A DNA stretch of 64,000 bases from a virus, in the IMG/VR virus record IMGVR_UViG_3300009154_000042, positions 1-64,000 of that record, one strand, 5' to 3'. The translations under genes and the position numbers were made by a program. Each line of letters opens with the position of its first letter. Positions within the stretch are counted from its first letter, which is position 1. Positions 1-21,800 of the stretch are shown piece after piece. The notes under the pieces were generated by a model, which was not told the DNA's origin, made no database searches, and was given only the letters and a program-made list of their open reading frames with translations.

Positions 1-249
1 GGAATTCTTGATATTTTAAATTTCATTGATATTCCTGCATTGGCAAGTGACTCTCAGTATACCTTGACTAGTAGACATCTGCATAGGCCTGATTTACTCG
101 CATCAGATGTGTATGGCGATCCGCAACTTTGGTGGGTATTTGCCGTTAGGAATAAAGATGTAATTAAAGATTCAATTTTTGACTTTGTTCCTGGTCAGAC
201 TATCTTTATTCCTAGAAAAGATGCTATAAACAGGGCTTTGGGAATTTAA
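1..249 (+). CDS. 53: Baseplate wedge protein gp53-like, C-terminal part (5' end outside window)
   Basis: The frame is open from base 1 and ends at the TAA at 247-249, so only the last 82 residues are seen. The stretch LLASDVYGDPQLWWVFA matches the conserved 'A-x-x-Y-G-[DN]-P-Q-L-[WY]-W-V' segment of T4 gp53 and related wedge proteins, which help join wedges to the hub. The end (GQTIFIPRKDAI) resembles the closing strand of a LysM-like fold found in such proteins. It is followed 4 bases later by the hub gene, matching the T4-like order 53-5. An internal TTG at 40 is not the true start because homology extends upstream of it. Confidence 0.75.
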   Translation, partial: GILDILNFIDIPALASDSQYTLTSRHLHRPDLLASDVYGDPQLWWVFAVRNKDVIKDSIFDFVPGQTIFIPRKDAINRALGI

Positions 250-253
250 AATT

Positions 254-3200
254 ATGGCATCTGTAAATCCTCCAAAGAACGATATTGAAGCACTTGGCAA
301 GTGGCTCAAGGATCAGGGTTATAAAGTAAGTGGACACAGGGGTTACGACGGAGGAATAGAACTAGGAAAACACGTAGCCAATTCCCTACACTATTCTAAC
401 CAAGCGTATGATGTAAATATTTATGGAGCAGGCTTTGAAGCGAATAATAAAGAATATAGCGCAAGATTTGATGAATTGCAATCAAAATTGCAAGCGGCGG
501 GATATCGTGTATTTTGGAAGGTAAGAAACCACTTTAACCATCTTCATGTTGATACTGGAAAACCAAATACTTCACGAAAAACGGCCTCTGCCTCTGCATC
601 TACGAGTACACAAGCAGCCGGTAATCCTATTCCTGAAAAATTTACACTCGCTTCAGAAAATAACATTCTAAATCAATACAATTCGTGGAATTATAATTTT
701 ACAATTGGATGTTTGCCACTGGATGTTACAAATTCTCCAGTTGATCTAGACAGGGTAAAACAAAGTATAGAGAAATATACTGTGTTGACATCAAAGGGCA
801 AAGGAACACAAGGCATTGACGATGAATTGAACAAAAAATTGATTGATTCGTTTAACAAATCCAGTCCAGGAAGATTCGATCTATTCATAGATGAAGTAGA
901 AATTAAAAGTATTGTAACAGCGGGTTCAGAAGAAGCGGGTTCAACCCAAGCACATGGAATTGACTTTGTAGTACAAGAACCGTATAGTATGAACGGATTT
1001 ATTGAAGCACTACAGGTTGCGGCGGTTGCAGCCGGTTATGACACTTACATGAATGGCGCAATCTTTGCGCTAAAGGTGGAATTTATTGGCTACCGAGATG
1101 ATATTCCGGTTAATGAACTTGTACCTGAAATTATACCAAAAAGTACTCGGTATTTTATTATTCAAATTACTACAATTGATGTTACTGTTACCGAAGCTGG
1201 TACCAAGTATCGGTGTAAAGCAACTCCGCCAAATCAACTTGCATTTGGAAATGCCTCTATTCTACTAACCGATCTTTCTGTAGGAGGAAGTACAGTAGGT
1301 GAAGTTTTGTGTAATCTTTTTAAAGAAATAAACACATCTGTAAAAAACAATGCAAAAAAAACAAAAGGTGAAACTGATCCTAAACATGATATTTATGAAA
1401 TTTCTTGTCCTAAATTTGCAACGGCCGCTTCACCAAGTGATGTTATGAATGCGATGCTATATTCACCACGACAAGGAGTGACTTCTTCTAATGGCGAATC
1501 AAACAGTTATCAAAACGATATTATCAAGGAAAAAATGAATCAGGGATTGTCAGATCTTAATATATTCAATTTTTCAGATCCTGCACTAACTAAAGGATAT
1601 GTTGGAGCAAAACCAGAAGGAGGAGTGGCAAAAACGGCGGATGGAACTCAGCCAACAAACCAACCAGATCCAAAAACCGGTGCAAAAACCCAACAATTTA
1701 AATTTAGTGCAAATCATAGTATTAATGACTGTATTACTGCAATTATATTACACAGTGAATATGTAAGAGTTAATGTTTTACAAACGCAAATAGAAAAAGC
1801 AAAAGAAAGTAAAGATCCATACATAACTTATTTTAGCATTGGAATGGAAGTAGATAGAGGTGAATTTGATATTAAAAATAATAGATATTATAGTATCTAT
1901 CGGTATGTATTGAATCCCTTTAGGATGTTATATACAGAAGTTCCCGGCTATGGACAGTCTAAAATAGATATGTCTCCTGTGCGATATCAGGTAAAACGTG
2001 AATACAATTATATATATTCTGGAAAAAACACAGATATAATAAAATTTGAATTAAAGTTTGATAAGTTATATTATGAAGCACTTCCAAATATGCTTGGAAA
2101 TAAATCTTCAGTATCTTCAACTCCCGCTGCTGCATCCAAGAATAATACAGTAGAGGTTAAACAACCCGATAGTGCTATATCAATCAACTCAAAAAGTGAT
2201 TCCAAACCTATAAATGTTGTTCCATCTGCTGAAATGCAATCAGACCGGACCTCAAACTCTCAGGTATCTCCTGCGACTGGACAAAAACTGTCTGATCCAT
2301 ATCAGAGACTTGCAAGGGGAATGCATGATGCTGTGTTAAACAGTGTTTCTATGATTTCTGGAAATATGGAAATTTTAGGTGATCCGTATTTTCTAGTTAG
2401 TGGTGGTAGTGTTACTGAAAATTTGAAATTGGATAATAGTAAAACCGGTACCACAATGATTAAAGAAGATGGACAGGCAGCTGTTACTCAAGGCGACATT
2501 TTTATACAGATCAATTATAGGAATCCAATTGACATTTCAACTACAGGTAGAAATGCCGGATTGATTGAATTTGGTCCATTGTTACCATTTAGCGGATTGT
2601 ATAAGGTAAATACATTGACAAGCACTTTCAAAGGCGGAGTATTTACACAAGAACTGAACATTTTAAGAATTCCCGGACAGGCTGATCCTGGAGGACCTGA
2701 AGTTCTTCCTAATTCACTAAAAAATTCGCCTTTACCTGGAGAACAAAAAACAGAAGATACCAAGCCAACAGATGTTCAGGCTACTGGAATTCGGCAGGAT
2801 TCCCTGGGAATACTGAATATGTTATCCAGAGGTTTACCAAATCCAGTTGATAACTTTATCAATTTTGCGACCGATGCAGAAGCCGCACTTTCTAACGCAG
2901 TTGGAAGTGTTGGAAATTTTTCCAAAAGTTTGGTATCCGATTTTTCAGGACTTGCAGGCCAAGCTGGAGAATTGGCAAACCAACTAAGTGGTGGAATTGA
3001 CAATATTGACAAAAAGATATCTGTGTCCGCGGAATTATTTAATTCAACTATTGTTTCACCCAATCCATCCGCTTCTGCAATAACAGCTGTCAGTAGGTCG
3101 ATTAGTGGAACTATAGGTATAGATGAGACCGATGCTTCCACTGCACTGGCAACATCAGTTGCTACACAGATAACAGCGGCAGGTGGTTCAGCTAATAGTA

Positions 3201-4003
3201 TTGTATCAGATGTCAATAAAAGTATATCCAGTGTGGTTGGCAAGGTTGATGATACAGTGGGAGACGTTACGAATGCAATTAGTAAAGCATTCAACTCTAG
3301 TTTATCCGATCCACTTGCAATTGCAGACTCATTGAGAATAGATACATCCAAAATATCCGGTCTTTTGGGTCCAGTTGGCAGTCAGATTACAGGTGAATTG
3401 AAAAAGATTTCTAGTTTGATTCCTGATAACGTTGATTTTGGAACGTTAGGAAATAAAGGTCTAATGTTTAAATTCATCACCAAGGATAACATACCAAATT
3501 TGCCACCAGCTCAGCCGAGTGTTTCTGCACCTAAACCTTTGCCTGATCCTGCGCTCAAGAGTATTATAAATTCATTTGGTAGTATATCGGGTACATTAAA
3601 TGATTTGACCAATCTTCCTGCACTTACTGATATTAATAAAATTACAAACTCAGTGGGAAGTCTTTCATCAGGACTTGATAAAATTTCTGGAGCAGTTCAA
3701 GGATTATCAGATAATATAGGCACAGTAAATAGTATAGTCAATAATGTAGTCGGAGAAGCAGTTGGAGTTGTTAATTCTGTAGGATCTAGAGCACAAAATG
3801 CTGTATCAGGAGTCATGCCAGCATCGGTTGGACTAGGTTCGGTAGAAAGTGGCGCGCTAACGATTAAATCAGTTCTACAAATGGGATCAACTCCTGTAAA
3901 TTCATCTCTAGATAATACTGTAATATCCGCACTTGGCAGTAAACAATCACAGAGTCCATTGGTGAAATTAATACAGAACAATAATATCCAGGGAAGTACT
4001 TAA
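254..4003 (+). CDS. Large baseplate hub/tail protein with N-terminal M15-type peptidase domain
   Basis: A protein of 1249 residues. Residues about 1-102 look like a D-Ala-D-Ala carboxypeptidase-type (M15) zinc peptidase. H46 and D53 lie in an H-x6-D motif (LHYSNQAYDVN), and H96-x-H98 lies in NHLHVDTG; together these give the usual His/Asp/His ligand set. Such domains cut peptidoglycan cross-links. Residues about 110-850 have the look of a hub (gp27-position) or tail structural protein. The last 400 residues are Ser/Ala/Gly/Asn-rich and predicted helical, with many 'S-x-I-x-G' repeats. It lies between gp53 and the gp5-like spike, so a hub role is inferred from position. The peptidase assignment rests on motifs; the rest is not recognised at family level. 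Confidence 0.65.
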   Translation: MASVNPPKNDIEALGKWLKDQGYKVSGHRGYDGGIELGKHVANSLHYSNQAYDVNIYGAGFEANNKEYSARFDELQSKLQAAGYRVFWKVRNHFNHLHVDTGKPNTSRKTASASASTSTQAAGNPIPEKFTLASENNILNQYNSWNYNFTIGCLPLDVTNSPVDLDRVKQSIEKYTVLTSKGKGTQGIDDELNKKLIDSFNKSSPGRFDLFIDEVEIKSIVTAGSEEAGSTQAHGIDFVVQEPYSMNGFIEALQVAAVAAGYDTYMNGAIFALKVEFIGYRDDIPVNELVPEIIPKSTRYFIIQITTIDVTVTEAGTKYRCKATPPNQLAFGNASILLTDLSVGGSTVGEVLCNLFKEINTSVKNNAKKTKGETDPKHDIYEISCPKFATAASPSDVMNAMLYSPRQGVTSSNGESNSYQNDIIKEKMNQGLSDLNIFNFSDPALTKGYVGAKPEGGVAKTADGTQPTNQPDPKTGAKTQQFKFSANHSINDCITAIILHSEYVRVNVLQTQIEKAKESKDPYITYFSIGMEVDRGEFDIKNNRYYSIYRYVLNPFRMLYTEVPGYGQSKIDMSPVRYQVKREYNYIYSGKNTDIIKFELKFDKLYYEALPNMLGNKSSVSSTPAAASKNNTVEVKQPDSAISINSKSDSKPINVVPSAEMQSDRTSNSQVSPATGQKLSDPYQRLARGMHDAVLNSVSMISGNMEILGDPYFLVSGGSVTENLKLDNSKTGTTMIKEDGQAAVTQGDIFIQINYRNPIDISTTGRNAGLIEFGPLLPFSGLYKVNTLTSTFKGGVFTQELNILRIPGQADPGGPEVLPNSLKNSPLPGEQKTEDTKPTDVQATGIRQDSLGILNMLSRGLPNPVDNFINFATDAEAALSNAVGSVGNFSKSLVSDFSGLAGQAGELANQLSGGIDNIDKKISVSAELFNSTIVSPNPSASAITAVSRSISGTIGIDETDASTALATSVATQITAAGGSANSIVSDVNKSISSVVGKVDDTVGDVTNAISKAFNSSLSDPLAIADSLRIDTSKISGLLGPVGSQITGELKKISSLIPDNVDFGTLGNKGLMFKFITKDNIPNLPPAQPSVSAPKPLPDPALKSIINSFGSISGTLNDLTNLPALTDINKITNSVGSLSSGLDKISGAVQGLSDNIGTVNSIVNNVVGEAVGVVNSVGSRAQNAVSGVMPASVGLGSVESGALTIKSVLQMGSTPVNSSLDNTVISALGSKQSQSPLVKLIQNNNIQGST

Positions 4004-4004
4004 T

Positions 4005-6032
4005 ATGGCAATTGATACACGCTCTTCTGATAGGTCGAACATTAATCCAGGACCATATCTTGCAAGAGTTACGAATCATTTAGATACTACATTCATGGGA
4101 TCTCTACAAGTTCAATTATTAAAAGCTATTCCTGGTTTGGCAGAAACTGAATCTTCCAATATAATTGTAAGATATTGTAGTCCATTTTTTGGAGCAACAT
4201 CTAGTAAATTTGAAGGTAATAACTCTGCGAGTTTTAATGATGTTCAAAAATCTTATGGAATGTGGATGGTTCCACCGGATATCGGATGTACGGTTCTAGT
4301 CGTTTTCATTGCAGGTGATATAAATCAGGGCTATTGGATTGGTTGCATACCAGATATGTATCAAAATCACATGGTACCGGGAATAGCAGCTAGTCAGTAT
4401 TCAGCAATGACAGATGATCAATTGCGTCAATACAATACTAGAAATGTTCCTGTTGCAGAGTTTCTAAAAAGTACTCGTGATTTATCCAATCCTACTCCAG
4501 ACACGTTTACCAAGCCGATACATCCATTTGCCGATAGATTAGTTCAACAGGGTTTATTAGTTGATGATGTTCGTGGAGTTACTTCTAGTAGTGCTAGAAG
4601 AGAAGTTCCAAGTCAGGTATTTGGAATTAGTACTCCTGGACCAATTGATGTGAATTCTCCACTTAAATCAGCAGGATTTACTTCAGGCGCTGGAACCATT
4701 TTATTGCCGGTAAGTAGACTTGGTGGACATCAGCTTGTCATGGATGATGGCGACAGAGATGGAAAAAATGAATTATTACGCATTCGAACAAGAACAGGTC
4801 ATCAAATTCTATTACACAATAGCTCAGATTTAATATATATCGGAAATAGTAAAGGAACTGCCTGGATAGAATTGACATCCAACGGCAAAATTGATATGTA
4901 TGCAGAGGATAGTGTTAGTATCCATACACAACAAGATTTTAATTTTCTAGCGGACAGGGATATAAATCTAGAATGCAAAAGAAACATGAATGTCTCCGTT
5001 GGCGGCACTTATCATATGGATGTTGCAAAAGATTATGTATTGAATGTTTCCGCAGGAGGCCAGTTGACTTTTGAATCCGATGTGAATATACGTACTGGAT
5101 CGTCTTTGTATCAAACCGCGGATGGAGATATTCACATTTTAGCGTCTTCAATTTATGAAGGTGCTGGTGGCGAGTTTAATATGAGTTCAGGAGGAGACTG
5201 GAAAGTCAGTGCTTCTGGTACTTCAAATGTTACAAGTTCACATCATAAAGAAACTGCTGGCATGATAGATATGAATGGTGCTCCAGCTGCGTCTGCAACT
5301 GGTCCATCCTCTGCCTCATCGGCTTCGCCACTGACCGTCTTTAATTTGCCTAATCGTGATAGTACTCAAGGATGGGCAAACGCAGAGTTATACAAGGCCG
5401 CAGATGTGATTACTATTATGAAGCGAGCGCCAACACATGAGCCATGGGATCATCATGAAAATATTAACCCTGATCAATTTAGTCCAGGAAATCTAGATGT
5501 TAGTGTTGGTGGAGGAAATCAATCAGTTAACTACAATGTGCCACCGTCAGTTGGAACGCCTCCTACTAAAACTGGGAATGTTGAGCAAGATAATATTGCG
5601 GCATTCTTGTGGACAATTAGGGTATGTGAGGGCACAAGCGGTGCAAATGGATATAATACCATGTTTACCGGTAAAACATTTAGTGGATTTGCAGATCATC
5701 CTAGAATTAAGAATACAGCATCGGTCAAAGGAAGACCAATAACTTCAACAGCAGCAGGCGCATATCAATTTTTAGCTAGTACATGGGATTCTGTAAAAAA
5801 GGCTCTTTCATTGAAGGATTTTAGTCCAGCTAGTCAGGATAAAGCTGCTGTTTTATTGATTCAACAGAAGGGAGCACTGGATGACGTTAAAGCTGGAAGA
5901 ATAGCTAATGCCACTAGGAAAGTTTCCAGTGTGTGGGCAAGTTTACCAGGTAACAACTATAATCAGGGTGGAAAATCCCTAGCAGCCGTTCAAACCTATT
6001 ATAAACAGGGCGGCGGAACGATATCAGCCTAA
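4005..6032 (+). CDS. 5: gp5-like tail spike with C-terminal lambda R-type (GH104) muramidase domain
   Basis: A protein of 675 residues. The N-terminal ~130 residues (GPYLARVTNHLDTTFMGSLQ, later VPPDIGCTVLVVFIAGD) are the gp5/VgrG-type OB fold. Residues about 235-400 are short beta-strand repeats of the triangular spike helix (GKIDMYAEDSVSI, RNMNVSVGGTYHM). After a linker, residues about 510-675 closely match the lambda endolysin R: SDHPR-like FADHPRI, TSTAAGAYQFLAST, KDFSPASQDKAA, QKGALDDVKAG and SVWASLPGNNYNQ. Lambda R is a lytic transglycosylase, so this domain should cut glycan strands during entry. In T4 the lysozyme sits between OB fold and helix and is of another family; here it is at the C-terminus. 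Confidence 0.9.
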   Translation: MAIDTRSSDRSNINPGPYLARVTNHLDTTFMGSLQVQLLKAIPGLAETESSNIIVRYCSPFFGATSSKFEGNNSASFNDVQKSYGMWMVPPDIGCTVLVVFIAGDINQGYWIGCIPDMYQNHMVPGIAASQYSAMTDDQLRQYNTRNVPVAEFLKSTRDLSNPTPDTFTKPIHPFADRLVQQGLLVDDVRGVTSSSARREVPSQVFGISTPGPIDVNSPLKSAGFTSGAGTILLPVSRLGGHQLVMDDGDRDGKNELLRIRTRTGHQILLHNSSDLIYIGNSKGTAWIELTSNGKIDMYAEDSVSIHTQQDFNFLADRDINLECKRNMNVSVGGTYHMDVAKDYVLNVSAGGQLTFESDVNIRTGSSLYQTADGDIHILASSIYEGAGGEFNMSSGGDWKVSASGTSNVTSSHHKETAGMIDMNGAPAASATGPSSASSASPLTVFNLPNRDSTQGWANAELYKAADVITIMKRAPTHEPWDHHENINPDQFSPGNLDVSVGGGNQSVNYNVPPSVGTPPTKTGNVEQDNIAAFLWTIRVCEGTSGANGYNTMFTGKTFSGFADHPRIKNTASVKGRPITSTAAGAYQFLASTWDSVKKALSLKDFSPASQDKAAVLLIQQKGALDDVKAGRIANATRKVSSVWASLPGNNYNQGGKSLAAVQTYYKQGGGTISA

Positions 6033-6045
6033 GAGTAAATAATGT

Positions 6046-6486
6046 ATGCCTTATAAAAACATCATAATAACTCCTAACAATATAAGCAATCAGCAAAGTG
6101 TGCAAAAAAGTCAATTTTATAAAGGCTTTAGCACCGCTGATAGCACTCGATTGTCTAGTAAAATATATGACTTTGATCTAATTCAACAAGATATTATTAA
6201 TATTTTTCAAACTCGCAGAGGTGAAAGAGTCATGGATCCAGGATTTGGTACAATGATTTGGGAAATGATTTATGAACCATTTACAAATGATGTTAAGCAG
6301 AGAATCAGTGATGATATCACTAATATTTTGAATTATGATCCTAGAGTGGTGCCTACTAGAGTCAATATTTCCGAAGCAGAATATGGACTTCTATTGGAGG
6401 CAACTCTTTATTACAAGCAGCTAGATTTAACACAGGACATCAAGCTTGGATTTAATAAAGATTCAGGAAATATAACACGACAATAA
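6046..6486 (+). CDS. 25: Baseplate wedge protein gp25-like
   Basis: 146 residues, close to the usual length for T4 gp25 (132) and GpW/gp25-family proteins. The central segment (TRRGERVMDPGFGTMIWEMI, then DITNILNYDPRV) is the typical family core with the conserved 'G-E-R-x-x-x-P-x-F-G' motif. gp25 sits at the inner end of the baseplate wedge next to the sheath initiator. The gene lies between the spike and gp6, the order seen in many T4-like environmental phages. Confidence 0.9.
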   Translation: MPYKNIIITPNNISNQQSVQKSQFYKGFSTADSTRLSSKIYDFDLIQQDIINIFQTRRGERVMDPGFGTMIWEMIYEPFTNDVKQRISDDITNILNYDPRVVPTRVNISEAEYGLLLEATLYYKQLDLTQDIKLGFNKDSGNITRQ

Positions 6487-6506
6487 TATGTATAGTTAAT
6501 CCATTC

Positions 6507-6514
6507 AATAAATA
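6507..6514 (+). promoter_or_regulatory. Late-type promoter box AATAAATA before gp6
   Basis: An AATAAATA box lies 23 bases before the gp6 start at 6538, with a ribosome site (AGGAAA) between. T4 late promoters carry TATAAATA, read by the gp55/gp33/gp45 system. The spacing equals that of the boxes at 56270-56277 and 62396-62403. In AT-rich DNA the box alone is weak evidence. Confidence 0.35.
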
Positions 6515-6537
6515 TGTTATCTAGGAAAATATAACAT

Positions 6538-9500
6538 ATGATACCCTCAACTAAAGCACAATTACTCGTTGCAGAGACTTGGACTAAACTTTATCAAAAC
6601 TCTAGTAATGCTGATTTTCAAAGCTACGATTTTGATACTCTTCGTAGGACTATGATTGCATATCTTCAGGAAACTTATCCTGAAGAGTTTAATGACTATA
6701 TAAATTCTAGTGAATATATAGCATTGGTTGATCTTATTGCGTATGTTGGTCAAAATCTAAGCTTTCGAGTTGATCTCAATGCTCGGGAAAATTTTCTAGA
6801 GACTGCTCAACGAAAAGATAGCGTACTTCGATTGGCTCAATTGATTAGCTATAATCCCAAGAGAAATATTCCGGCAAGTGGTTTATTGAAAATAACTTCG
6901 ATTAGAACAACTGATAATATCATAGATTCTAACGGTATTAATCTGGCAAATCAAGTAGTTGCATGGAATGATTCTTCTAATAATAATTGGTATCAGCAAT
7001 TTATTAACATCATGAATTCTGCTATGACTCCAGGATTAGTCTTTGGACTTCCTGATGATACTGCTACATTAAATGGCATTAGTGCGGAACAATATAGATT
7101 TAATAGTCGATCAGATGATCTTTCAATTTACAGTCTATCAAAGTCCATAAATGGAACACAGATGACATTTGAAATCACTGGTGCTGAGTTTACTGGCAAA
7201 AATTACATATATGAGCAAACACCTCGTCTAGGTTCGGCATTTTCATTGGTGTATCAAAACGACAATCAAGGTACTGGATCAGCTAATACTGGATTCTTTG
7301 TCTATTTTAGACAGGGATCAATGTCATCGAGTGCATTCAGTGTGCCTACGCCTGTGCCAAACGAAATTATTGGAATAAATGCAAATGGTGTCAATAACGA
7401 TGATGTTTGGCTATGGCAATTGGGCACAAACGGATCTTATGATACATTATGGACACGAGTTGATGGACTAGTTGGTAACAACGTGGTATATAACAATATT
7501 TCTAAAAACATACGAACGATATACTCGGTTACTAGTAGAAATAATGATCAGATAGATTTGAATTTTGCTGACGGTAGCTTTGGCAATTTGCCTAAAGGCG
7601 ACTTTATAGTATTTTATAGGCAAAGTAACGGACAGAATTATTCAATTACTCCTGATCAGATGTCTGGTATCAATGTTAATATTCCATATACTAACAAAAT
7701 GGGTGCAACACATCAATTAACATTAACCCTGTCTCTTCAAAATACAGTGTCAAACAGTAGTAATTCGGAGACAATTGATAACATTAAAACAAATGCTCCT
7801 CAAAATTATTATCTACAAAATAGAATGATAACAGCGGAAGATTATTCGATTGGTCCTCTTAGTGCCAGTAATAACGTGCTGAAGGTCACCAGTATCAACC
7901 GTGTTTCTAGTGGAATATCCAAGTATTTTGAATTGTCAGACATTAGTGGTAGATATTCAAACACTGACATTTTTGCACATGATGGAATTCTCTACAAAGA
8001 AAATAAAAAGGTATCATTTACTTTTAAGTTTACCACTAGAAATCAAGTATTCGCAGTGATAAAAGAAAGAATTGAGCCAATTGTTGCATCTGGTAGTTTT
8101 AGAAACTTCTATTATGAAAACTATTCTCGGCCTAATTTAGAATCCTTCACATACGCATGGGAGGCTGTTACCAATTTGCCTAATCAGACAACTGGTTACA
8201 TAAGTAATACCTCGACTTCTATTCCGGTACCGGTTGGATATTTTGGCTCTAGTAGTGCCATTTACATAACCACTGGAGCATTGATTAAATTTAATATAAC
8301 TCCTCCTACTATATCTGAACCTAATAGAACACCTACATATATTTGGTCCAAGGTAATTCAAGTTATTGGAGATGGTGCAAATTCCGGCAAAGGTAAACTA
8401 AACGATGGGACGGGACCAATTATCCTGTCTGGAAAAATACCTACTTCTGCCAAGATGATAGAAGTTATCCCGGCATTCGTGAGTGTTTTTAATTATGCGT
8501 TTGAAACACAAATTTCAAATCTTTGCATGGTACAAAGAAACTTTGGACTGAGTTTTGATAGACTTTCTAGGCAGTGGTTTGTTATTCTAGAAAGTAATCT
8601 GGATTTAGTTAATGCATTTTCGTTGATTTATCAAAAAGATGTTACAAATTCTCAAAAAGATTCTAGCTGGATGATTGCATTTGAGTGGAATGGAACGGGT
8701 TATACTGTAACTCATAGACTATTGGAATATATATTTGAAAGTGCTAATCAAACTGCATTTTTTGTTGATTATAATAATGTCAACTATGACTACGTCACTC
8801 GGACATTAATTAAAGATCAGATTGATGTATTGGCAGTTAATTCAAATGTATCAACATCAACACTAGGACTCAGTATGGACTATCGCTGGCAAATAGAAAG
8901 TACTATAATTGAACCCGATGGATATATTGAACCTAAAAAAGTAATTGTAAGTTTTTATGACGCCAATAACGACGGACAAATAGATACTCCTGATGCATTT
9001 ATTGATATAGTTGATCCTAATAAAACTCGTAATAAATTTGTTTATTTTAAAATATTATCAGATGGTAGTAGATATGAATTATTGAGCGACCAGAGTTTGA
9101 TAACTTCGTACCAAAACTCTGATGAAGTCAATTCACCAGTTGTAGGAAAACTTTACTATTTTTACGACATTGATGTGATTCAAGAATATGATGCCTCGGG
9201 ATCTTTTATATTAAACAACACATATTTTGCTAGACCTGGTAGATCTGGTATTAAATTTCACTATATGCACAATAGTGGTGAAGAACGACGAATTGACCCT
9301 AGTAAAAGTAATATTATTGATGTTTATGTATTAACGGCCAGTTATGACACCGCATTCCGTCAGTACCTAGTAAATGGTGGAATGATGCCACCTGCGCCAA
9401 CTAGTCAAAGCTTGGAAAACGATTTTTCGGCAACATTGGATCCTATAAAGTCAATATCTGATACATTGGTATATCATCCTGCAAATTATAAAATATTATT

Positions 9501-9891
9501 TGGTAGCACAGCCTCGCCTAATTTACAGGCAACATTTAAAGCGGTGCGCAATCCCGAAAGAATTACAAGTGATAACTATCTAAAATCTAGAATAATTTAT
9601 GCAATAGATACTTTTTTTAGATTGGACAATTGGAATTTTGGACAAACCTTTAACTTTACGGAACTGTCTGCATTTGTGATGATATATGTATCTCCTGATA
9701 TCATTAACTTTATCATAACTCCTAAAAATCCTAGTTTACCATTTGGAAGTTTGTTTGAAATATCATGCCAGTCAAATGAGATATTAATAAGTGGAGCAAC
9801 AATCGATGACATTGATATCATTGATGCTGTTACTTCAAATCAAATTAACGCTATCTCCCCAATTATAAACAATACGAATGTGAGCAATTAA
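6538..9891 (+). CDS. 6: Baseplate wedge protein gp6-like, extended
   Basis: 1117 residues, against 660 in T4 gp6. The N-terminal 120 residues are typical for T4-like gp6: a helix (AQLLVAETWTKLY), then 'DFDTLRRTMIAYLQ', 'YPEEFNDYINSSEYIALVD', 'YVGQNLSFRVDLNARENFL' and 'ISYNPKRNIPASG'. The C-terminal part (SRIIYAIDTFFRLDNWNFGQ) is also typical of gp6/gpJ-like ring proteins. gp6 forms the continuous ring that links the six wedges. The extra length lies in the beta-rich middle (about 250-900), which includes a calcium-loop-like DANNDGQID. A ribosome site AGGAAA precedes the ATG. The stop is two bases from the next gene. Confidence 0.88.
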   Translation: MIPSTKAQLLVAETWTKLYQNSSNADFQSYDFDTLRRTMIAYLQETYPEEFNDYINSSEYIALVDLIAYVGQNLSFRVDLNARENFLETAQRKDSVLRLAQLISYNPKRNIPASGLLKITSIRTTDNIIDSNGINLANQVVAWNDSSNNNWYQQFINIMNSAMTPGLVFGLPDDTATLNGISAEQYRFNSRSDDLSIYSLSKSINGTQMTFEITGAEFTGKNYIYEQTPRLGSAFSLVYQNDNQGTGSANTGFFVYFRQGSMSSSAFSVPTPVPNEIIGINANGVNNDDVWLWQLGTNGSYDTLWTRVDGLVGNNVVYNNISKNIRTIYSVTSRNNDQIDLNFADGSFGNLPKGDFIVFYRQSNGQNYSITPDQMSGINVNIPYTNKMGATHQLTLTLSLQNTVSNSSNSETIDNIKTNAPQNYYLQNRMITAEDYSIGPLSASNNVLKVTSINRVSSGISKYFELSDISGRYSNTDIFAHDGILYKENKKVSFTFKFTTRNQVFAVIKERIEPIVASGSFRNFYYENYSRPNLESFTYAWEAVTNLPNQTTGYISNTSTSIPVPVGYFGSSSAIYITTGALIKFNITPPTISEPNRTPTYIWSKVIQVIGDGANSGKGKLNDGTGPIILSGKIPTSAKMIEVIPAFVSVFNYAFETQISNLCMVQRNFGLSFDRLSRQWFVILESNLDLVNAFSLIYQKDVTNSQKDSSWMIAFEWNGTGYTVTHRLLEYIFESANQTAFFVDYNNVNYDYVTRTLIKDQIDVLAVNSNVSTSTLGLSMDYRWQIESTIIEPDGYIEPKKVIVSFYDANNDGQIDTPDAFIDIVDPNKTRNKFVYFKILSDGSRYELLSDQSLITSYQNSDEVNSPVVGKLYYFYDIDVIQEYDASGSFILNNTYFARPGRSGIKFHYMHNSGEERRIDPSKSNIIDVYVLTASYDTAFRQYLVNGGMMPPAPTSQSLENDFSATLDPIKSISDTLVYHPANYKILFGSTASPNLQATFKAVRNPERITSDNYLKSRIIYAIDTFFRLDNWNFGQTFNFTELSAFVMIYVSPDIINFIITPKNPSLPFGSLFEISCQSNEILISGATIDDIDIIDAVTSNQINAISPIINNTNVSN

Positions 9892-9893
9892 TA

Positions 9894-12800
9894 ATGACCA
9901 ATAAAGAATTTATTAATCCAGTGGATATAAACAATCCTTCAAATGTACGTAGGACTGTTGATCTGTTGCCGGGATATCATAAAACAGATAAAAATGCAAA
10001 ATTTTTAGCGAGTACCCTTGATCAGTTTATTCAAGAGCCACAATTAGAACGTCTCGACGGATTTGTTGGAAGCAAGCTCAGTTTAAATTATGATCCTGCA
10101 AAAGATATATACCTCGATTCTAATGGCACATTGAGAAATAGCTATCAATTAGAGCCGTCTCTTGTTATAAAAGATCCAAATTTGAATATAACATATTCGT
10201 CTACATATGATGATTTAATTAATGAATTGAAATTTAATGGAGCTAAGGTGTCTAACCTAGATAGACTATTTAGGCCAAAATCGTTCTCATATGATCCGTG
10301 TATAGATTGGGATAAATTTATTAATTATGGACAATACTATTGGTTACCAAATGGTCCAGACACTATCGAAATTGCAGGCCAGCAAGCATCGACTATTAGT
10401 TCCTACACAGTAACCGATTCAGTTGATGGTAAAAGTTTGATTTTTACTCCAGATGGTCTATCAACATCTCCTTTGTTAACTTTATATAGAGGATCTACCT
10501 ATGTATTTGATGTTAACAGTGACTATCCATTTTATATAAAAACCGGATATGTTCCTGGAGAAGTTGGTCTATATAGAGGAGCTACCAATCAGGGTGTTAA
10601 ACAAGGTAGACTTATTTTAACAATTGATGACACTACTCCTGATAATTTATTTTATTTTCCAGAAGGAAATCTCTACGGCGTTGGACAAATTGTAGTAAAG
10701 CGCGCAATAGAAAATTCGATCTTAGATGTTTCTGCGGATATTATAGGCAAAAAGACTTATTCGTCTATTGGCGGGGTAGAATTCTCAAATGGCATGAAAG
10801 TTAGATTCGTGGGCAATGTTATGCCCGAAGAGTATGCAGAAAATGATTTCATAGTAGAGGGAGTTGGCACATATATCACTCTTGTTCCTTATAACGAACT
10901 AAAGACTGTTGGTATATCTACTACTAATTTGAATGTTAACTTTGATGCTACTCCATTTGATCAATATCCATTTGATGATTTTAGTTATGTTCCTCTTTTG
11001 CCTGAATATATTACAATCAACCGAGCAAGTCCCGATAGAAATTCATGGAGTCGATATAATCGATGGGTCCATGTTGACGTGATTAAAGCTACTGCTCTTG
11101 CTAACGGAGTTCAACCAGAATATTCTTCTCTTCAACAAGCAAGGCGCCCTATTGTTGAATTTGTTTCTGGATTAAGACTTTATAATTTTGGTGCAACTAC
11201 CAAACAAACAGTTGATCTTATTGATACAATTACAGTTGATGCTCTTTCGGCATTTGCAAACAGTCCTGGATTTTATATTGATCAAGTAATGGTTGAACCT
11301 GGTTTTAGAGTAATTTTTAATGCAGACAAAGATCCTTTAACTCGTGGTAAGATTTTTGAAGTTAACTTTGTTACTGTAAACGGAAAACAAGTAGTAGACT
11401 TGGTAGAAACTCTGGATACTGTATCTGAGTACAATTCTTCATTGGTAGTTCTTCGTGGCGAAACATATAAGGGAACAAATTGGTGGTTTAACGGCACTGA
11501 ATGGACATATTCTCAACAGCGTGTTGCGTTAAATCAATTTCCTAAGTTTGATGTTTTTGACGATGATGGAATTAGTTTTTCTGACCAGGCCGTATATAAT
11601 TCCACATTTCGTGGAACAAATGTGTTTAGTTACGCAGTGGATACCAATAATTCAAAAGATGCTATTTTAAATTTTCCATTAAAATATAAAAATATAGCAA
11701 ATCAAGGCGACTATCTGTTCAATAATGATTTTATGACGGATACGTTTGCATTATCGGTCAATAATCAGATCGAAGATCGAATGGTCGCTGGCAATTATCT
11801 AAAGATAACATACGCCGATGGTACAGAATCATTTTTAGATGTGTGGACAGAACAGTCCGAACTACATATTCCAATTATTCAATATCAAGTGATTGATTCA
11901 GAAATCATATACGTTCAAATTATTGCAATTGACGAGCCTGGCTATACACCTGATCTTGAGATTGATCTATATGTCAATGATGTCAAAAAGCGTCGTTATA
12001 TTGATTTTAGAATAGCAAGAGATTCAGATAGAGCATATGTTGTAGTAGAAAAATCATTTTCAGTGGACGATAGAGTTTTAATAAAACTGTTTACTAAAAA
12101 ACCTTCTAATGATCATGGTTATTATGAAATACCTAGTAATTTAACCGACAATCCATTAAATGGACCTATTGGCAATTTTACATATGCTGAACTAAGTGAT
12201 CACGTCAGAACAATTGCCTATAATAGTCCTGAATTTATTGGAGTTTTTCCAGGAAATGGAAACTTGCGAGATTTATCAAATGTTGGAAAATATGGATCTA
12301 AATTAGTAAGTCATTCCAATCCCGTGAGTTTTGCTCATTACTTTTTAGGAACAAAACAACACAGTATAATTGATTCTGTAAGACAGGTTGCACAAGATTA
12401 TAATCAATTTAAATCCAATCTCCTTAGAAGTATTACTGATTTGAGAAATTCCTACGATTTATTTCCCAGGGATATTCTAGATTTAGCAATATCCTCACTA
12501 AATCTGGTAAAAGACAATTCAGTTTCGTATAATTTTTCAGATATGATTGCTTATGGCAAAAATCATAGTGATAGATCATATACAGTCACTGATTCAAGGA
12601 ACAAAATTTATAGTTTGGAGAGTATTTTTGATAATACAGTCCTGAGCGAAAGATCAATTTTGATATATTTGAATGATGTGTTATTGATCAGTGGCAGAGA
12701 TTATATTATTGATAGATTTTCTGCAAGTTTTACGATTAAAGTTCCTCTTTCATCCGGTGATATTATTTTAGTTTCTGACTATTCCAGTACTGTAGGCAAT

Positions 12801-15800
12801 TTTGTTCCTCCTACACCTACAAAATTGGGTCTTTATCCTAAATATACTCCAGCAAAATTCTATGATGACACATATGTAGGTGATCCTCGTTTGGTTATTC
12901 AGGGGCATGATGGTAGTATCACTCTTGCATTTGGCGACTATAGAGATGATGTTTTATTAGAATTTGAAATTCGTGTTTATAATAATATAAAAACAGATTA
13001 TAAGAGACATTTGATTGACATAAACTCAATTATTCCAGGTGCATTTAGAACAACTGACTATTCAATAAATGAGATTACCGATATTATTACTCCCGATATA
13101 TTAAAGTGGGCAGGTAATTTTGGGGTAGATTATCAAACTAATAATACATTTGATCAGTTGGATACGTTTACATTTAATTATTCTGGAATGATTGATGGAA
13201 TACACAAGCGTAGAATGCCAGGACACTGGCGAGCAATATATAAATTTTTCTATGACACTGATCGTCCTCATACTCATCCATGGGAAATGCTAGGATTTAC
13301 TGAAAAACCTGAATGGTGGAATACCGAGTATGGACCTTCTCCTTATACTCGTGGAAATACAATTCTTTGGAATGACTTGGAATCTGGCAAGATTGCAAGT
13401 GGTGATCGCGCAGGAACACATTCTTTGTATTCAAGACCAGGATTGTCTAATTTTATTCCAGTTGATGATAGTGGTAATTTATTAAGTCCAACAGATACTG
13501 GACTGGTAACAACTGCTATAATTAATCCTGGTGATCCTAAAAGAATTATTAATATCAGAAGCATTAATATTGACAGTGATTGGATAGTGGGAGACCAAGG
13601 TCCGGCCGAAACCTCATGGAGAAAGAGTAGTTATTGGCCATTTATCTATCAAATTGTTGCAGCGCTTACTAAGCCGGCCGATTATGCAGCTTTTATGTTT
13701 GATCCTGATAGGTTGATAGCAAATAAGTTTAATCAATATAAGTATGGAAAAAGTCATCAGTTTTTAAACTTGTCAAAGGTTTCTCTATATCGTGACGTTG
13801 TCAACGGCACTAGGGTACTTGCTTCTGGTTATAGTGTTTTTGTAATTGAACGCGGACTAATGAATGACGTAAAATATCTTACCACCTTAAAAAATGATTT
13901 GTCCAACATAACCTATAATTTGATGGTAAAATTAGGCGGATTTGTAAGCAAAGACAAACTTCAAATCTCAATTGACTCTATAGATCCTACGAGTCCATAT
14001 CCTGGAGTATTATTGCCATCTGAAGACTATCAGATATTTTTTAATCAAAGTTCACCTATACAGACTTTGGGAATTTCTGGAATAATAGTACAAAAGACTC
14101 TCACGGGATTCTCTGTTAGAGGTTATGACAAATATGAACCATACTTTACAGTATTTGAGCCAGTACCAGTTGCAACTGACCGACTTGAAGTTTCTGGAGG
14201 TAGATCCGAAAATTTTGTAAATTGGCAGGCAAATACTATATATGATCTTGATCAGATTGTATTTTATATGGACAGGTACTATCGGTCAAAACAGAAGCAC
14301 AATAGTGGTGTAGACTTCGTGATGTCTTATTATCAAAGTCTTCCTTATTTGCCAATGACCGGTGGAATAAGTGTATCTACTCGCTCGTTATTTTCAGATA
14401 CTGCAAAGAATGTTCCCTATGGGACCACCTTTGAAACTATTCAAGAAGTATATGATTTTATTATCGGTTATGAGCGTTGGCTTGTATCTAATGGATTTAT
14501 ATTTGATGACTTTATAAATGATTTAGGTGAAATTTCTGATTGGACACTTAGTGCTAAAGAATTTTTATTCTGGACAACTCAGAATTGGACAACCAATTCA
14601 GTTATAACTCTGAGTCCGTTTGCAAATAAACTAAACTTTTATTCAAATACTGGAATAGTTGATAACATACTCAATAAATTTTATGAGTATAGTTTGCTTA
14701 GAGCAGATGGATCACCATTCCTACAAAATAGATTTACGTTGATTCGATCGGATGGAAACTTCACAATATCAACGGTGAATACCACGGATGGTATATATTT
14801 TGCCAAATTAAATCTTGTTCAAAAAGAACATGCATTAATTTTTAACAATTATAGTCTGTTTAATGATGTTATATATGATATTGAAACAGGTTATCGTCAG
14901 CGTAGAGTAAAACTTCAGGGATTCAGAACTAAAAATTGGAATGGAGACTTTTTTAGTCCAGGATTTATATTTGATAGAGCAACGATAGTTGATTGGGAAA
15001 AATTTACTAGTTATGAAATTGGTCAGGTTGTACGTTTTTCTGGCAATTATTATTCTGCCACAAAGTCAGTACAAGGCAGTCAGTCCTTTGATCTAACTAG
15101 TTGGACCCTTTTGAGTAGTAAACCGGAATCAACTTTATATCCAAACTTTGATTACAAGATTAATCAATTTGAAGATTTTTATAGTCTTGATATTGATAAT
15201 TTTGATGCAGGTCAACAGCGCATGGCACAGCATTTGATTGGTTACTTGCCACGACCTTATCTTAATAATATTATTGGCAATTCAGTTGCGGAATATAAGT
15301 TCTATCAGGGATATATTCGTGAAAAGGGTACAAAAAATCCTTTGATTAAGTTGAGCAAATCTACCCTAATCAATGATAGTGGAAGTATAGATTTCAACGA
15401 GGAGTGGGCATTTCGCATTGGATATTATGGTGGATTCAATACTTATCAAGAACTGGAAACACTCCTAGACCCTACAAAATTTATTGAAAATCCACAGATT
15501 ATTGGCTTTGTCAAAACAATACCAACTGATGTTGCTGACTCCATTTATTACAAAGATATTAATGATGTGATTATTTCGCCTGACAATTTTGATATTGAAC
15601 AGGCGTTCCCAACTCTGACTACATCCACTGTGTACACAGATTTTGAAATACCTGTTGCGGGATATCCTAGATTTGATGATATATCATTAACTGCTTTTAA
15701 TAAAAATAGTATTTTAGATATTTCAAATAATGCAGCACTCACTGATGGAACGGCTATTTGGCTAGGTTATACTGAGAGTAGAGATTGGGATGTATTACGA

Positions 15801-18800
15801 TATACCAAAGTTGCTACTAAGATTATTGCTGCTGAAATCTATATTTCTGGTCAGGAAACTGCTTTTGTTACTAGCAGACCACATTTACTCAATACAAATG
15901 ATATTGTTAGTATAACAGGCATTGCAGTTGATGTTGATCGGTGTTATGTAGTTTCACGAATTATCAGTCCAACCGAATTTACAGTATTCTCTGTACTTTT
16001 TGAATTGCCAGTATTGCCTGATTTTCTAGGAGGATTATTACACACATTTAAAAGCTCTAGAATGTCAGATTTAAATTGGTCAGCTACCAACAGTTTATCA
16101 TATGATACTGACCGACGTATCGGTGAACTAATGTGGATCGATAATAAAGGCGACGGTAATTGGGCAGTATATCAAAAAATTGATAATTTTACAACAGTTA
16201 CCAGTGTTATATCTGCTCCGGCGCCTGATATTACCAGTCAACAGTATGGTTATAAAATTGTTCAGAATGTCAATACTACCACTATTATCGTATCATCTCC
16301 TACCTACAAAGAGACTATCTACGGTTACACTGGCCGTATTTCCGTTCTAACTAGAAATGCCGATAGTAATCCTCGATTTAATTTTAGCTATTCTATTAAT
16401 AAAGATAATATTACATACTATGATGGAACTGAAACTAGTTTCTTTGGAGAAGCAGTTGCGTTTGATTCAGGAATATCATTGGTTATTGCAGGAGCATCCG
16501 GTGCATCAAGCGTGAAATCAACCTTGACAAATACAGTAGTTAATCCTGCATCGGGTATTTCTAATCAATTTGTCAACCAGGGAGTTGTAAAACTATCCAT
16601 AATCAATGAAAATGGACGCAGGGAAACGACTGCAACTGTTATAACAACTCCTAATCCTGGAAACAACACTCGATTTGGAAAATCATTGGCATATTCAACT
16701 CAGACATCAAAATTAATTGTTGGCTCTCCTGGATATGCTAATGGCATAGGTGCAATTTATCGTTATACTGTTGGTGTAACAACTTCGGTCAATGTAACAT
16801 ATTCTAGTAGAACTTCGCCTTCTATTTCTACAGGAAGTAACTTTGGTACAAATATTGCGGCAAATTGGAATAATAGTATTGTTGCCGTAACTGCTCCAGG
16901 AATTAATAATACATTGGGATCAACCGGTGCAGTATTTGTATATCGTGAAAATTCTACAACCAATGTACTTGAGCAGTTGAAAATAATATCAGGAGATAGC
17001 TCTGAACTTCCAGTTACTTTTGGAGCATCTGATAATTTTGGATCAACGATAAAACTAACAAAAGATGGAAAGTTTTTGTTTATTGGTACACAAAATTATA
17101 ATGATTCTGCTAGAGGAAACAATACAGGTGTAGTCGATATTTTCATGTGGACAGGTACCAATTATTCATTCAATCAGCGTCTGGATTCGCCATTTGAATT
17201 TGGTAAATTGGAATTTGGGTATGATATTGCATTGGATGAAACTGAGACTGAGTTAGTGATTTCGACCAAGAATAGTATATATTCTGGTACAACAACTTAT
17301 GATAGAAACTCAACAAGACTAGGAAGTACCATTGCAAACTCATTATATGGTACAATTTATGTGAATGATCCTACAAGTCCCGTTAGGAATTCAACTACAG
17401 ATTTTGATACAGGAACGACCACCTTTTATGATGTAGTTTATGATGTTGGAACAGTTCATGTTTACTACAAGTATGGAGAATTTTGGACTTACGCGCAAGA
17501 ATTGCCTTCATCCTCAGTCAATTTGGGAAGCTCATTTGGATCAGGTTTATCAGTTACTTCAAAGACTATTTGTGTTGGTGCACCGTCACTGTTGAGTTCA
17601 TACAATCAAGGCCGAGGTCAGGTCTACATCTATGATCGAAAAGAAGTGTCTGTAAATGCATGGAAACTTCTCAGACAAAATTCACCACTGGTCGATCTAA
17701 CACTAGTTAAAAAAGCATCAACTATTGATTCAAATACACAACAAGTCAAAGATTACCTTGACATTATTGATCCAGTTAAGGGTGATATTTTGGCAACAGC
17801 AAAGCAGGAATTAAAATTTATCACACCTTATGATCCTGCAATCTACAGTATTGGCATTGATAGTACAAATGTTGATACAAATTCTAACTGGCTTGATGAG
17901 CACGTGGGTGAATTGTGGTGGGATCTTTCTAATGTAAAATTTGTATGGTACGAACAGGGTGAGTTGGAATATAGAAAAAACAATTGGAATCGTTTATTTC
18001 CTGGATGTACAATTGACGTTTATGAGTGGGTAAAGTCGGAATTCTTGCCAATAGAGTGGAGCACTTTTGCAGACACTGCTGATGGATTGGCACGAGGAAT
18101 AAGCGGCCAGCCAAAATTTGCCACAAATACAGTAATGTCGGTAAAACAGGTATATAATTCAGTTTCAAACTCGTTTAGTAATGTATACTATTACTGGGTA
18201 AAGAACAAAAATATTCTTCCTGACAACGTTCATAATAGGAAACTTACTGCATTTAGTGTTGCATCACAAATAGTTGATCCTGTTGGTTCAGGGATTAAAT
18301 CAATAGCAATTCTAGGTCCAACATCGGCCATGATATCAAATATCAAGCCTGCTCTTATGTCAAATAATGTTAATCTTAATATTACATTTGATTATACCAG
18401 AAATTCTGCAAATAGGCACACCGAATGGCTATTATTGCAAGAAAATGATCCTAATAGTAAGCCAAACGCATTATTAGAAAAAAAATTGATAGATAGCTTA
18501 ATAGGGCATGATGAAATAGGAAATGCAGTGCCGTTTCCTAACTTGCCAGAAAAGGTTAGATATGGACTGGGAATTAGACCACAGCAGAGTCTCTTCAAAT
18601 ATCCACTAGAAGCAATGCGCAATATCATGGAATTCAGTAATACAATATTGTCATCTTTATTGATTACCGATAAAATTAACTTTGGGAATCTGGAATCAAA
18701 AGATCAGATTCCATCAACAGCATCTTATGATTTACTAGTTGAAGACATTTACGCACTTGAGCTTGTAAACGTCAAGAGTATAAAATCAGCAGATATTAGA

Positions 18801-21800
18801 CCAATAATTGATTTAAATGGTAAAATTTCATCAGTTGTAATTGTTGATCCTGGATCAGATTATAGAGTATCACCGACGCTTGTGATTACAGGTGACGGAA
18901 CGGGAGCAGAGATCATTGTTCCTGAAAAGGATGGAATAGATGAAACTGGTGGTGTTGTTCGTGTATCTATAATAAATCCTGGTAGTCAATACACTTATGC
19001 AACGATTACAGTTAGACCCTTTACCGTAGTGGTGCAGACTGATTCCACTGTTAACGGCAAGTGGGCAGTATATGAGTGGGATGTTGAGAGACAGCGTTGG
19101 AACAAGTCCAGAACACAGGAATATGACACTACTCAGTACTGGAAATATATAGATTGGATGAGTCCTAATTATAATTCCCGAAAGGAAATATCTGCAAAAA
19201 TATCCTCGGCATTTGCACTCGATGCATGGGAGTCGTTGGACATCGGCAGTTACATTAAAGTTGAAAATGGCGGTGACGGAAGATATTTGATACTTGAAAG
19301 AACCGCTGGCACTGGCGGCACATTCGATGATAATTGGAATATTGTGTACTCTCAAAATGGCACTATACAATTCCTTGAACCACTATGGAACCTATCGGGA
19401 TCATTATATGCATGGGATCAACGTGCTGGATTTGACCAAACTCAATTCGATCAATCACCTTCTAAAGAAATTTTTTATGCTGTTACAGCATTAAAAGATG
19501 ATATATTCGTAGGAAATTTAAAGATATATTGGAATCAGCTTTTCTTCAAAGCTGTTCGATATGCAATGACTGAGCAGAAAAATTTAGACTGGGCATTCAA
19601 AACTACGTTTATTTCAGTAATAAATAATTTGGGTAGTTTAGATCAGCGTCATTCCTACAAATTACAAAATAGTAAAAATTATGAAAATTTCTTAAAAGAA
19701 ATTAAACCATATCATACAAAAATTAGAAAATTTGTAGAGGCATATACCAGTACGGAATTTACTCAAAGTTTCACCACTGACTTTGATTTACCAGTGTATT
19801 ACAATACTTTGACATTTAATTTTACTAATGTTGATTTTGGAAATAAGAAACTATTACAGTATCCTTGGAAATCATGGTTTGAAAATCACACTCATGGCAT
19901 AGAGTCAATAACTGTATTTGATGGTGGATCTGGTTATAATGCAGTGCCAACTATTTCAATAATAGCCGCCGCAAATGATACTGGATATGGCGCAACTGCA
20001 ATTGCATATGTTGCGCTAGGAAAAATAACCGATATCATTGTGACAAATCCTGGAAATGGATACACTGTTGCGCCTACTGTTGTTATCAACGGAGGAGGAA
20101 ATGGTGCTCTAACTCCTGCAAGGGTGTATGCTAGACTAGGCAAAAGTCCAGTTAGAACAAACACTGTTGCCTTAAAGTTTGATAGGGTGACTGGTCAACG
20201 AGAAATTGGCACATCAACATGGACCGACTCGTTTGTTGCTATTGATAACCAAGTCTCATTTGATTTAACATGGGTACCTATTTTAAACAAAGCAGATATA
20301 GACCTATATGTCAACGATACTTTACAGCTTTATGATAGTTATACAATAGAATATCGAAAAGAAAAATTTAATAATAGCTATACAAAATCATATGCTGTTC
20401 TTAAATTACAGTATATTCCTAATAAATTTGATAGAATTAGAATTAGTTATTTAAAAAATCTGTCGTTTTACACAGCTGTAGATCGAATTGAATACTATTA
20501 TCAACCAACCGCTGGTATGCCTGGAAAAGATCCCGAGCAGTTGATGTCGGGAGTGACCTATGATGGTTTATCAATTGAAACTTTGCCATTTGATTTTTCA
20601 AATGGTTGGGATATGTTGCCATTTGGGACTACGTCATGGGATAATTATTCTTTAGAATCTGGTTATATTTCATATTCAACAAATTCTACGAGTACACAGA
20701 CATTTGTTCTTACCGATACTATAATCAGTACTGGAACAAGAGTTAATGTTTACCTAAATAAGACTAGAATTGACGGCACGGGATCTGCAATAGTTCCTAC
20801 GATTATTGGAATAGGATCAGGAGCAATTGACAATATAGAAGTCACTGTGTCAGGTTCAGGTTATGTATCTTCATTGACAACAGTGACAATATCTTCGCCT
20901 AATTCTATCAGTGGAACTGCTGCAACCGCCACTGCAATACTGAATGTGTTAGGCCAAATTACTGGTATAGAATTACAAAATAGCGGCAGAGGATACACTT
21001 CTACTCCAGTAGTTACAATCACTGGACCATCCACGATACAAGCATACGCAAGAGCAGTGATAAAATCTGAGTTCACAACAACTGTTTCGGCTACCACTCA
21101 GACTGTGATCACCATTCCTTCTTCGGCTTTCCTGACAACGAGTACGCTAATTGAATTCAGGCACTCTGATAGTGATGGAACATTGCAAATATACGATATT
21201 GAAAGAAGCTTGGACTCCGTTATTAATGGCGGCAATATGGCATACACTACCGCTCTAGGATTAACTCCTAGTGAAATAATATTAGATGGTGGCTCAACAT
21301 CAACTAGATTTATGACAGGAATGATCGATGATGGTTTCTTAAATTCTTATAATAGTCCTGCTCCGGAAGAGTGTGTTCCTGGTCAGATTATGGAATCAGT
21401 TGGTATCAGTCTTTATACACAATCTCCTTTGGTACAACCTAACATCGTTAATAAATTGTATACAGTGAACGGATCCACTTCCACTTATAGTCTAGGTCTA
21501 AAACCTACTAATATTGATTCTGTAATTGCAGTGTTTAATAATAGAAAATTGAACAAAAATGAATATGTGATAGATTTTACCAATAATACTTTTAGGTTCA
21601 CTTCGACAACTCCTGGATTAGGTGCTCTTAGCTTGACATCGATTCATGCAGGAACTATATCTTTAATAGATTATAATGTTGAGACTTTTTCTGCGCCAGG
21701 TGGCAAATATTCGCCTCCAGTACTATTTGATGCAATAGGCAGTGCTGGATCAAGTACATATGTTACAATTAATGGAATTCCGGCAATATTTGGAGTTGAT

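Follow-up and report, generated by a model that had tools for sequence, protein, structure and literature searches.

Phage T4 carries a single glycan cutter in its spike, located between the OB fold and the helix. Other layouts have been reported. According to the available text of PMC5259590, CBB has a C-terminal lysozyme in its gp5-like protein, with a domain order unlike that of T4 gp5, and a possible M23 peptidase inside the spike and not on the hub. The accessible part of PMC10966104 assigns lysozyme, endoglucanase and peptidase domains to the hub of A-1(L), with activity shown for two of them. Here we describe the neighbouring hub and spike genes (positions 254-6032) of the IMG/VR virus record IMGVR_UViG_3300009154_000042. 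The analysed stretch, called the window below, comprises bases 1-64000 of this record, which is an 82 kb fragment (82,135 bases in all). We consider it fairly likely that the two genes encode the apparatus with which a large myovirus related to T4 punctures the cell, and that this apparatus has two different virion-associated wall-cutting domains, one at the N-terminus of the hub and one at the C-terminus of the spike. The system is ordinary in kind and new in combination: the spike layout is the norm of its family and the M15-like domain of the hub is lineage-specific.

The spike protein and its C-terminal domain

The domains, their order, the folds of hub and spike and the catalytic-type residues were obtained by computation. 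The spike gene comprises the following regions (aa, amino acids):

4005-6032, + strand: gp5-type central spike gene, 675 aa (PHROG, Pfam, Foldseek)
4050-4394, + strand: OB-fold region, spike aa 16-130 (PF04717 at aa 83-115, E 2.5e-4, below cut-off; PHROG 13211)
4395-4649, + strand: conserved segment, spike aa 131-215, at the site of the T4 gp5 lysozyme (alignment)
4800-5279, + strand: triple-stranded beta-helix region, spike aa 266-425, approximate (DUF2345 at aa 285-415, below cut-off; block of high pLDDT; gp5/VgrG matches)
5415-5474, + strand: conserved post-helix motif R-x-P-T-H-E-P-W-x-x-H-E, spike aa 471-490 (pattern and alignment)
5562-6029, + strand: lambda R-type transglycosylase domain, the last ~155 residues, spike aa 520-675 (sequence and fold match)

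The original prediction, made from the DNA sequence of the window, described a gp5-like spike that ends in a lambda R-type domain, with the muramidase after the helix and not before it. Both points were borne out. Spike aa 546-673 match lambda lysozyme (1AM7) with E 3.4e-24, which at the level of sequence is far beyond chance, and the predicted C-terminal domain superposes on 3D3D with TMt 0.88. Glu542, which we take to sit at the place of lambda Glu19, is kept in the window spike, and a catalytic-type Glu is found in 16 of 16 lambda R-class tails. Sequence match, fold match and catalytic Glu together make this a domain of the lambda R type; it stands after the helix at aa 520-675, not between OB fold and helix like a T4-type lysozyme.

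PHROG 13211 covers spike aa 17-411 (E 7e-48), and the predicted spike model matches T4 gp5, VgrG and eCIS spikes (Foldseek, E 1e-6 to 1e-5). The protein is thus of the gp5 type, with an OB fold followed by a triple-stranded beta-helix. The model has a mean pLDDT of 65, with the helix and the lambda R domain good and the OB part poor, and it is a monomer, the trimeric tip being beyond its scope. The segment at 4395-4649 (TSSSARRE..PS.VFGISTPGP), which occupies the T4 lysozyme slot, is strongly conserved, with 30 of 85 positions invariant among 23 aligned sequences, and gave no enzyme match.

Residues 425-506 are mostly of low confidence in the predicted model, which is consistent with a flexible tether. 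Seven of the 20 positions of the post-helix motif (aa 471-490) are invariant in 23 rows, and HEPWxxHE or a close variant was found in all 81 spikes of the set described below, enzyme-less ones included. The PTHEPWxxHE-type motif is a candidate tip or cap-binding element.

Enzymes after the helix in related spikes

The spike set consists of the window and 80 related loci (81 spikes); the loci are the best 80 of at least 599 candidates and include many near-copies. Spike tails were cut after the conserved motif and then classed, which gave 40 GH19-like, 16 lambda R-like and 14 SLT-like tails and 11 without an enzyme. An enzyme after the helix, found in 70 of the 81 spikes, is therefore the rule in this family, and the position of the window muramidase is normal. 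The profile of the GH19-like class (23 rows) matches GH19-type endolysins (7.5e-23), and that of the SLT-like class (12 rows) matches the lytic transglycosidase 9udh in the PDB (E 1.5e-46).

Mapped on a quick tree with 69 distinct spike cores, the tail classes require 15 changes or more. The window spike core pairs with that of locus L015 (SH-aLRT 98; 74% identity over 334 columns), the tail of which is of the SLT class. The segment past the spike helix is a swappable enzyme cassette in this spike family.

SGNH/GDSL hydrolase-like domains were also observed, one in each of the three enzyme classes. In L018 (8001-10739) the domain is inserted into the lambda R-like domain; in L062 (8001-10604) and L064 (5561-8140) it is added after the glycan cutter, the GH19-like and SLT-like classes having one each.

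The hub protein

The hub gene precedes the spike gene and comprises these regions:

254-4003, + strand: baseplate hub gene, gp27-type, with an added N-terminal domain, 1249 aa (sequence and predicted structure)
290-562, + strand: M15/hedgehog-like (LAS-type) putative zinc peptidase domain, hub aa 13-103 (predicted ligands H46, D53 and H98; also H96 of HxH, and H93)
569-667, + strand: Ser/Thr/Ala-rich linker, hub aa 106-138 (pLDDT under 50 for aa 89-131)
668-2680, + strand: gp27-type hub core, hub aa 139-809 (Foldseek, VIA; PHROG 11190)
2681-4000, + strand: Ser/Gly-rich C-terminal extension of ~440 aa, common to many relatives

A sequence match of the window hub to gp27 was not found. The model of hub aa 1-840 gave 33 Foldseek matches with E <= 0.001, nearly all of them hub, VgrG, baseplate or tail-tip chains, and Foldseek and VIA matched the core to the hubs of T4 (gp27), Mu (gp44), A-1(L) and diffocin. 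The VIA rows are hub-type chains over aa 139-809 only, with the N-terminal domain outside them; Z was 12.2 for the A-1(L) hub, 12.0 for diffocin and 9.2 for T4 gp27 (1k28_D). PHROG 11190 was present in 48 of 48 aligned hubs. By its predicted structure, the protein next to the spike has a hub fold of the gp27/gp44/VgrG type, and the extra N-terminal domain stands ahead of the first residues of this fold.

A whole-hub pattern search of IMG/VR revealed no relatives, although the gene adjacent to the spike in the related loci is a hub relative, which marks a limit of the pattern search. In phages, tblastn of the full hub gave nothing at 1e-5, and the hub core alone, or the hub of L014, gave weak matches in phages of the Paride, Atu_ph07 and Phosso type. 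The Ser/Gly-rich extension is absent from short hubs, such as those of L078 and L080.

The N-terminal domain of the hub and its distribution

H46, D53 and H98 are located where the original prediction had put them, as ligands of an M15-type peptidase. The window domain displays the M15/LAS motif SxH(x6)D ... HxH, and the 28 domain homologs that were aligned all have H46, D53, H93, H96 and H98. A profile of these 28 sequences matches hedgehog N-domains with E 3.5e-4 and with the zinc-ligand motifs aligned; the value for the M15 enzyme 1LBU is 0.22. Hedgehog proteins share a fold family with M15 peptidases, and the ECOD name Hedgehog/DD-peptidase appears in the accessible part of PMC10684548. 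Membership of the domain in the M15/LAS superfamily is thus supported by the hedgehog profile, but we assign it to no specific M15 family, and no Pfam M15 cut-off was reached; M15_3 and M15_4 matches were sub-threshold and seen in homologs only.

Loss of the M15 ligands in relatives, which would have told against the original prediction, was not seen in the 28 homologs (most of them found via HxH), but all 67 complete hub relatives are without the whole domain. This count covers the loci, near-copies included, that hold the hub N-terminus, the other 13 of the 80 being cut by a contig end or missing the hub; the nearest cores by tree, L015 and L002, have hubs cut by contig ends, so that the closest kin lie outside it. 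Most hub relatives start with a short low-complexity tail instead. A hidden Markov model of the 28 homologs, run against six frames of the 80 loci, four stretches of named phages and the window (3251 open stretches), matched the window only (E 8.8e-32), and one copy of the domain was found in the window's own record.

Elsewhere, domain homologs were found in 37 phage records, 35 of which are Brevibacterium phages with the match inside tape measure proteins. IMG/VR yielded 11 loci by one search and 22 with a profile, and a scan of genome contigs only five, from Geodermatophilus and Brevibacterium. An SLT domain follows downstream in 14 of 21 tape measure fragments with the homologous domain, and in L083 the domain shares one protein with PG_binding_1 (E 5e-5), which indicates that it travels with wall-degrading modules. 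Of all parts of the locus, the peptidase-like domain of the hub is the most unusual; it is a lineage-specific addition whose sequence is shared with siphophage tape measure proteins. A literature search, in which most subscription journals were outside the scope, gave no paper in which we recognised a fusion of an M15 domain with a gp27-type hub.

A domain present in the window alone could be a sequencing, assembly or start-codon artefact, with the real hub start near aa 110-137. Each of the 67 complete hub relatives begins near this point or has an unrelated tail at its start, and the window comes from an IMG/VR virus record. However, hub codons 80-153 include no ATG, GTG or TTG and so offer no start near the core, the frame is open across the junction, and its G+C content of 0.394 is within the local range (as high in 16% of 239 comparison windows). 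We regard an artefact as highly improbable.

Proposed function

From the families of the two domains it is a fair inference that the hub domain cuts peptides and the spike domain glycans. By analogy with T4, the device would be a trimer, with three copies of the lambda-lysozyme-type transglycosylase on ~80-residue, probably flexible tethers past the end of the gp5 beta-helix, and three copies of the M15/hedgehog-like putative zinc peptidase on ~30-residue linkers at the N-termini of the gp27-type hub. On contraction of the sheath, the tip would be pushed through the outer envelope. Glycan strands would be cut first, by the tip enzyme; the hub enzyme, which follows it, may then cut stem peptides and enlarge the opening for the tube. 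For both enzymes, activity, substrate and timing are presumed. The published hubs of A-1(L) and diffocin, each with two wall enzymes, favour this reading.

Several points weigh against such a pair of wall cutters. The enzymatic activity of both domains is inferred. At the spike, the 11 relatives with no tip enzyme indicate that the tip cutter is dispensable in some of them. At the hub, most homologs were found with the HxH pattern, so that the invariance of H93, H96 and H98 arises partly by selection; in the 22 IMG/VR profile loci, where the pattern held these three residues, only H46 and D53 are free of this bias. The hub model was built from hub rows only, so that no homologs informed its M15 part, which is of low confidence. 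None of the Pfam M15 models rose above cut-off for the window domain, and the best known sequence relatives, hedgehog proteins, are to our knowledge not peptidases.

The last two points also favour another role, in which the hub domain keeps the hedgehog/M15 fold and zinc and is not a wall peptidase, serving as a structural or binding module or as a processing protease for tail proteins in the course of assembly. Its nearest solved relatives by profile are hedgehog N-domains, it occurs in none of the 67 other complete hubs, and the tape measure proteins that hold its homologs are not proven lysins. These observations are opposed by the full ligand set, with HxH, in 28 of 28 homologs, by the SLT domains that adjoin it in tape measure fragments and by PG_binding_1 in the L083 protein. 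We consider such a role unlikely and prefer the reading as a wall peptidase.

A broader reading can be put forward tentatively, as possible but somewhat short of an even chance. The constant spike and the invariant PTHEPWxxHE would form a standardised enzyme docking site in a widespread group of uncultured myoviruses, in which lambda R-, GH19- and SLT-type enzymes were swapped repeatedly, with an optional SGNH esterase-like domain. The window lineage would in addition have placed on its hub a hedgehog/M15-like peptidase that siphophage tape measure proteins have as well. This would give a glycan and peptide pair split over two proteins, an arrangement that none of the solved hubs in the comparison shows.

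PAAR proteins and the tip

The original prediction had also argued that a C-terminal muramidase requires a differently arranged tip and cap, and suggested a search for a PAAR gene. No PAAR was detected in the window's own record, either with PF05488 or with a profile of four jumbo-phage PAAR sequences, but the record is an 82 kb fragment and the search decides nothing. PF05488 was further run on 15 other records. It detected PAAR in four of them, namely Atu_ph07, Paride, Phosso and the 353 kb contig of L075, and none in 121Q and ten other IMG/VR contigs; the four-sequence profile matched one of 18 records, the contig of L075. According to the available text of the review PMC7824862, PAAR proteins are found in the majority of jumbo myoviruses and are described as standalone.

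Both Atu_ph07 and Phosso have spikes with long post-helix segments. In the Atu_ph07 spike (L098 7905-10502), a stretch that by eye is transglycosylase-like is followed at the end by a trypsin-like domain (PF13365, E 6e-17). In Cr30, a PAAR gene lies directly downstream of a spike with a C-terminal M15 domain. These three phages indicate that a PAAR protein occurs together with an enzyme at the spike C-terminus. A tip unlike that of T4, lacking the usual PAAR cap, would agree with the empty search of the window's record and with the ~80 residues and conserved HEPWxxHE motif that follow the helix. Yet the fragmentary record, the PAAR genes beside post-helix enzymes in Atu_ph07, Phosso and Cr30, and the prevalence of PAAR proteins in jumbo myoviruses speak against it, and we judge it improbable. 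The inference from enzyme position to tip arrangement was not supported, since a post-helix enzyme is the family rule (70 of 81) and is also present in 121Q.

Some further observations were made in these phages. The Atu_ph07 PAAR open reading frame (L125 1435-1731, + strand; MF403008.1 about 347917-348213; PF05488, E 1.9e-10) is missing from the annotation of its record, and the available text of PMC6102473 on Atu_ph07 mentions neither the trypsin-like domain nor PAAR. The C-terminus of the Phosso spike (L101 7950-11084) resembles that of Atu_ph07 by eye, after a long glycine-rich stretch. The Paride PAAR protein WPK40272.1 (L124 1432-2454) carries a fused M15-type domain at its C-terminus; homologs of this domain in other phages are annotated as peptidase M15, endolysin or gp5-type spike (C-terminus). 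A link of the window M15 domain to this Paride domain was looked for with hhalign and not detected, and we do not place the two in one branch. Within the Cr30 spike, HMMER gave a weak lambda R-like signal (domain E 0.02); phmmer against the PDB did not confirm it, and it was not used.

Gene order and other genes of the window

Hub and spike are flanked by further baseplate genes, so that positions 1-9891 contain, in this order, a gp53-like end, hub, spike, gp25-like and gp6-like genes:

1-249: end of a gp53-like gene (PF11246, E 6.9e-5)
6046-6486: gp25-like gene (PF04965, E 5.6e-12)
6538-9891: gp6-like gene (PHROG 10646, E 1e-284)

The order is identical in Escherichia phage 121Q and matches in Paride, Atu_ph07 and Phosso, but there with small genes inserted or products unnamed. 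This common gene order places the window locus among jumbo T4-related myoviruses.

Three other genes of the window were recognised. A 4462-aa virion protein follows gp6 (9894-23282; over the first 1500 aa it matches PHROG 10938, a virion structural protein). On the - strand lie a DNA polymerase gene (43939-46617; PHROG 262, E 5e-198) and an ATP-dependent protease-like gene (57422-59701; PHROG 4871, E 3e-244).

Comparison with known systems

Virion-associated wall enzymes help to decide which cell walls a phage breaches. Spikes with a common core (74% identity between the window and L015) that end in unrelated enzymes, or in none, form a natural series in which one can test if the tip enzyme follows the wall chemistry of the host and if the phage needs it. 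The fusion on the hub shows that a siphophage tape measure module can ride on a contractile hub, and it bears on the exchange of tail-tip enzymes between unrelated tail types.

With T4 gp5-gp27 the window shares the gp27-type hub, a spike of OB fold and triple beta-helix, and adjoining gp53, gp25 and gp6 genes; it differs in the enzyme-less conserved segment in the lysozyme slot, the glycan cutter after the helix and the peptidase-like domain on the hub. The Rak2-like and Asteriusvirus jumbo phages (CBB_240, 121Q gp587) have the same gene order, a homologous spike and a C-terminal post-helix lysozyme, although theirs is of the T4 type (PF00959) and that of the window of the lambda R type.

The hub of A-1(L), gp15, which Foldseek and VIA matched to the window core, is likewise a gp27-type hub in a system with glycan and peptide cutters. 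All its enzymes are on the hub, the peptidase C-terminal, and its spike is plain, whereas the window splits them between hub N-terminus and spike C-terminus. In diffocin CD1368 the hub is fused to a transglycosylase and an endopeptidase, as given in the accessible part of PMC11329794; both are C-terminal there, and the endopeptidase is of a Cys-His-His and not a zinc M15 type. Unlike a hub hydrolase with glycan and peptide cutters in one polypeptide, the window hub yields a peptidase-like domain only.

M15-type motifs in T4-related tail-tip complexes are known from the spikes of Cr30, pf16, Melnitz and BUCT-ZZ01 (C-terminal M15) and from the Paride PAAR protein. There M15 is on the spike or on PAAR and not on the hub, and the hhalign comparison with the window domain was negative. 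VgrG3 of Vibrio cholerae, according to the available text of PMC9927483, is an evolved VgrG spike with a C-terminal muramidase and in this resembles the window spike; it is, however, a bacterial weapon accompanied by an immunity protein, whereas the window encodes what is probably a phage entry device.

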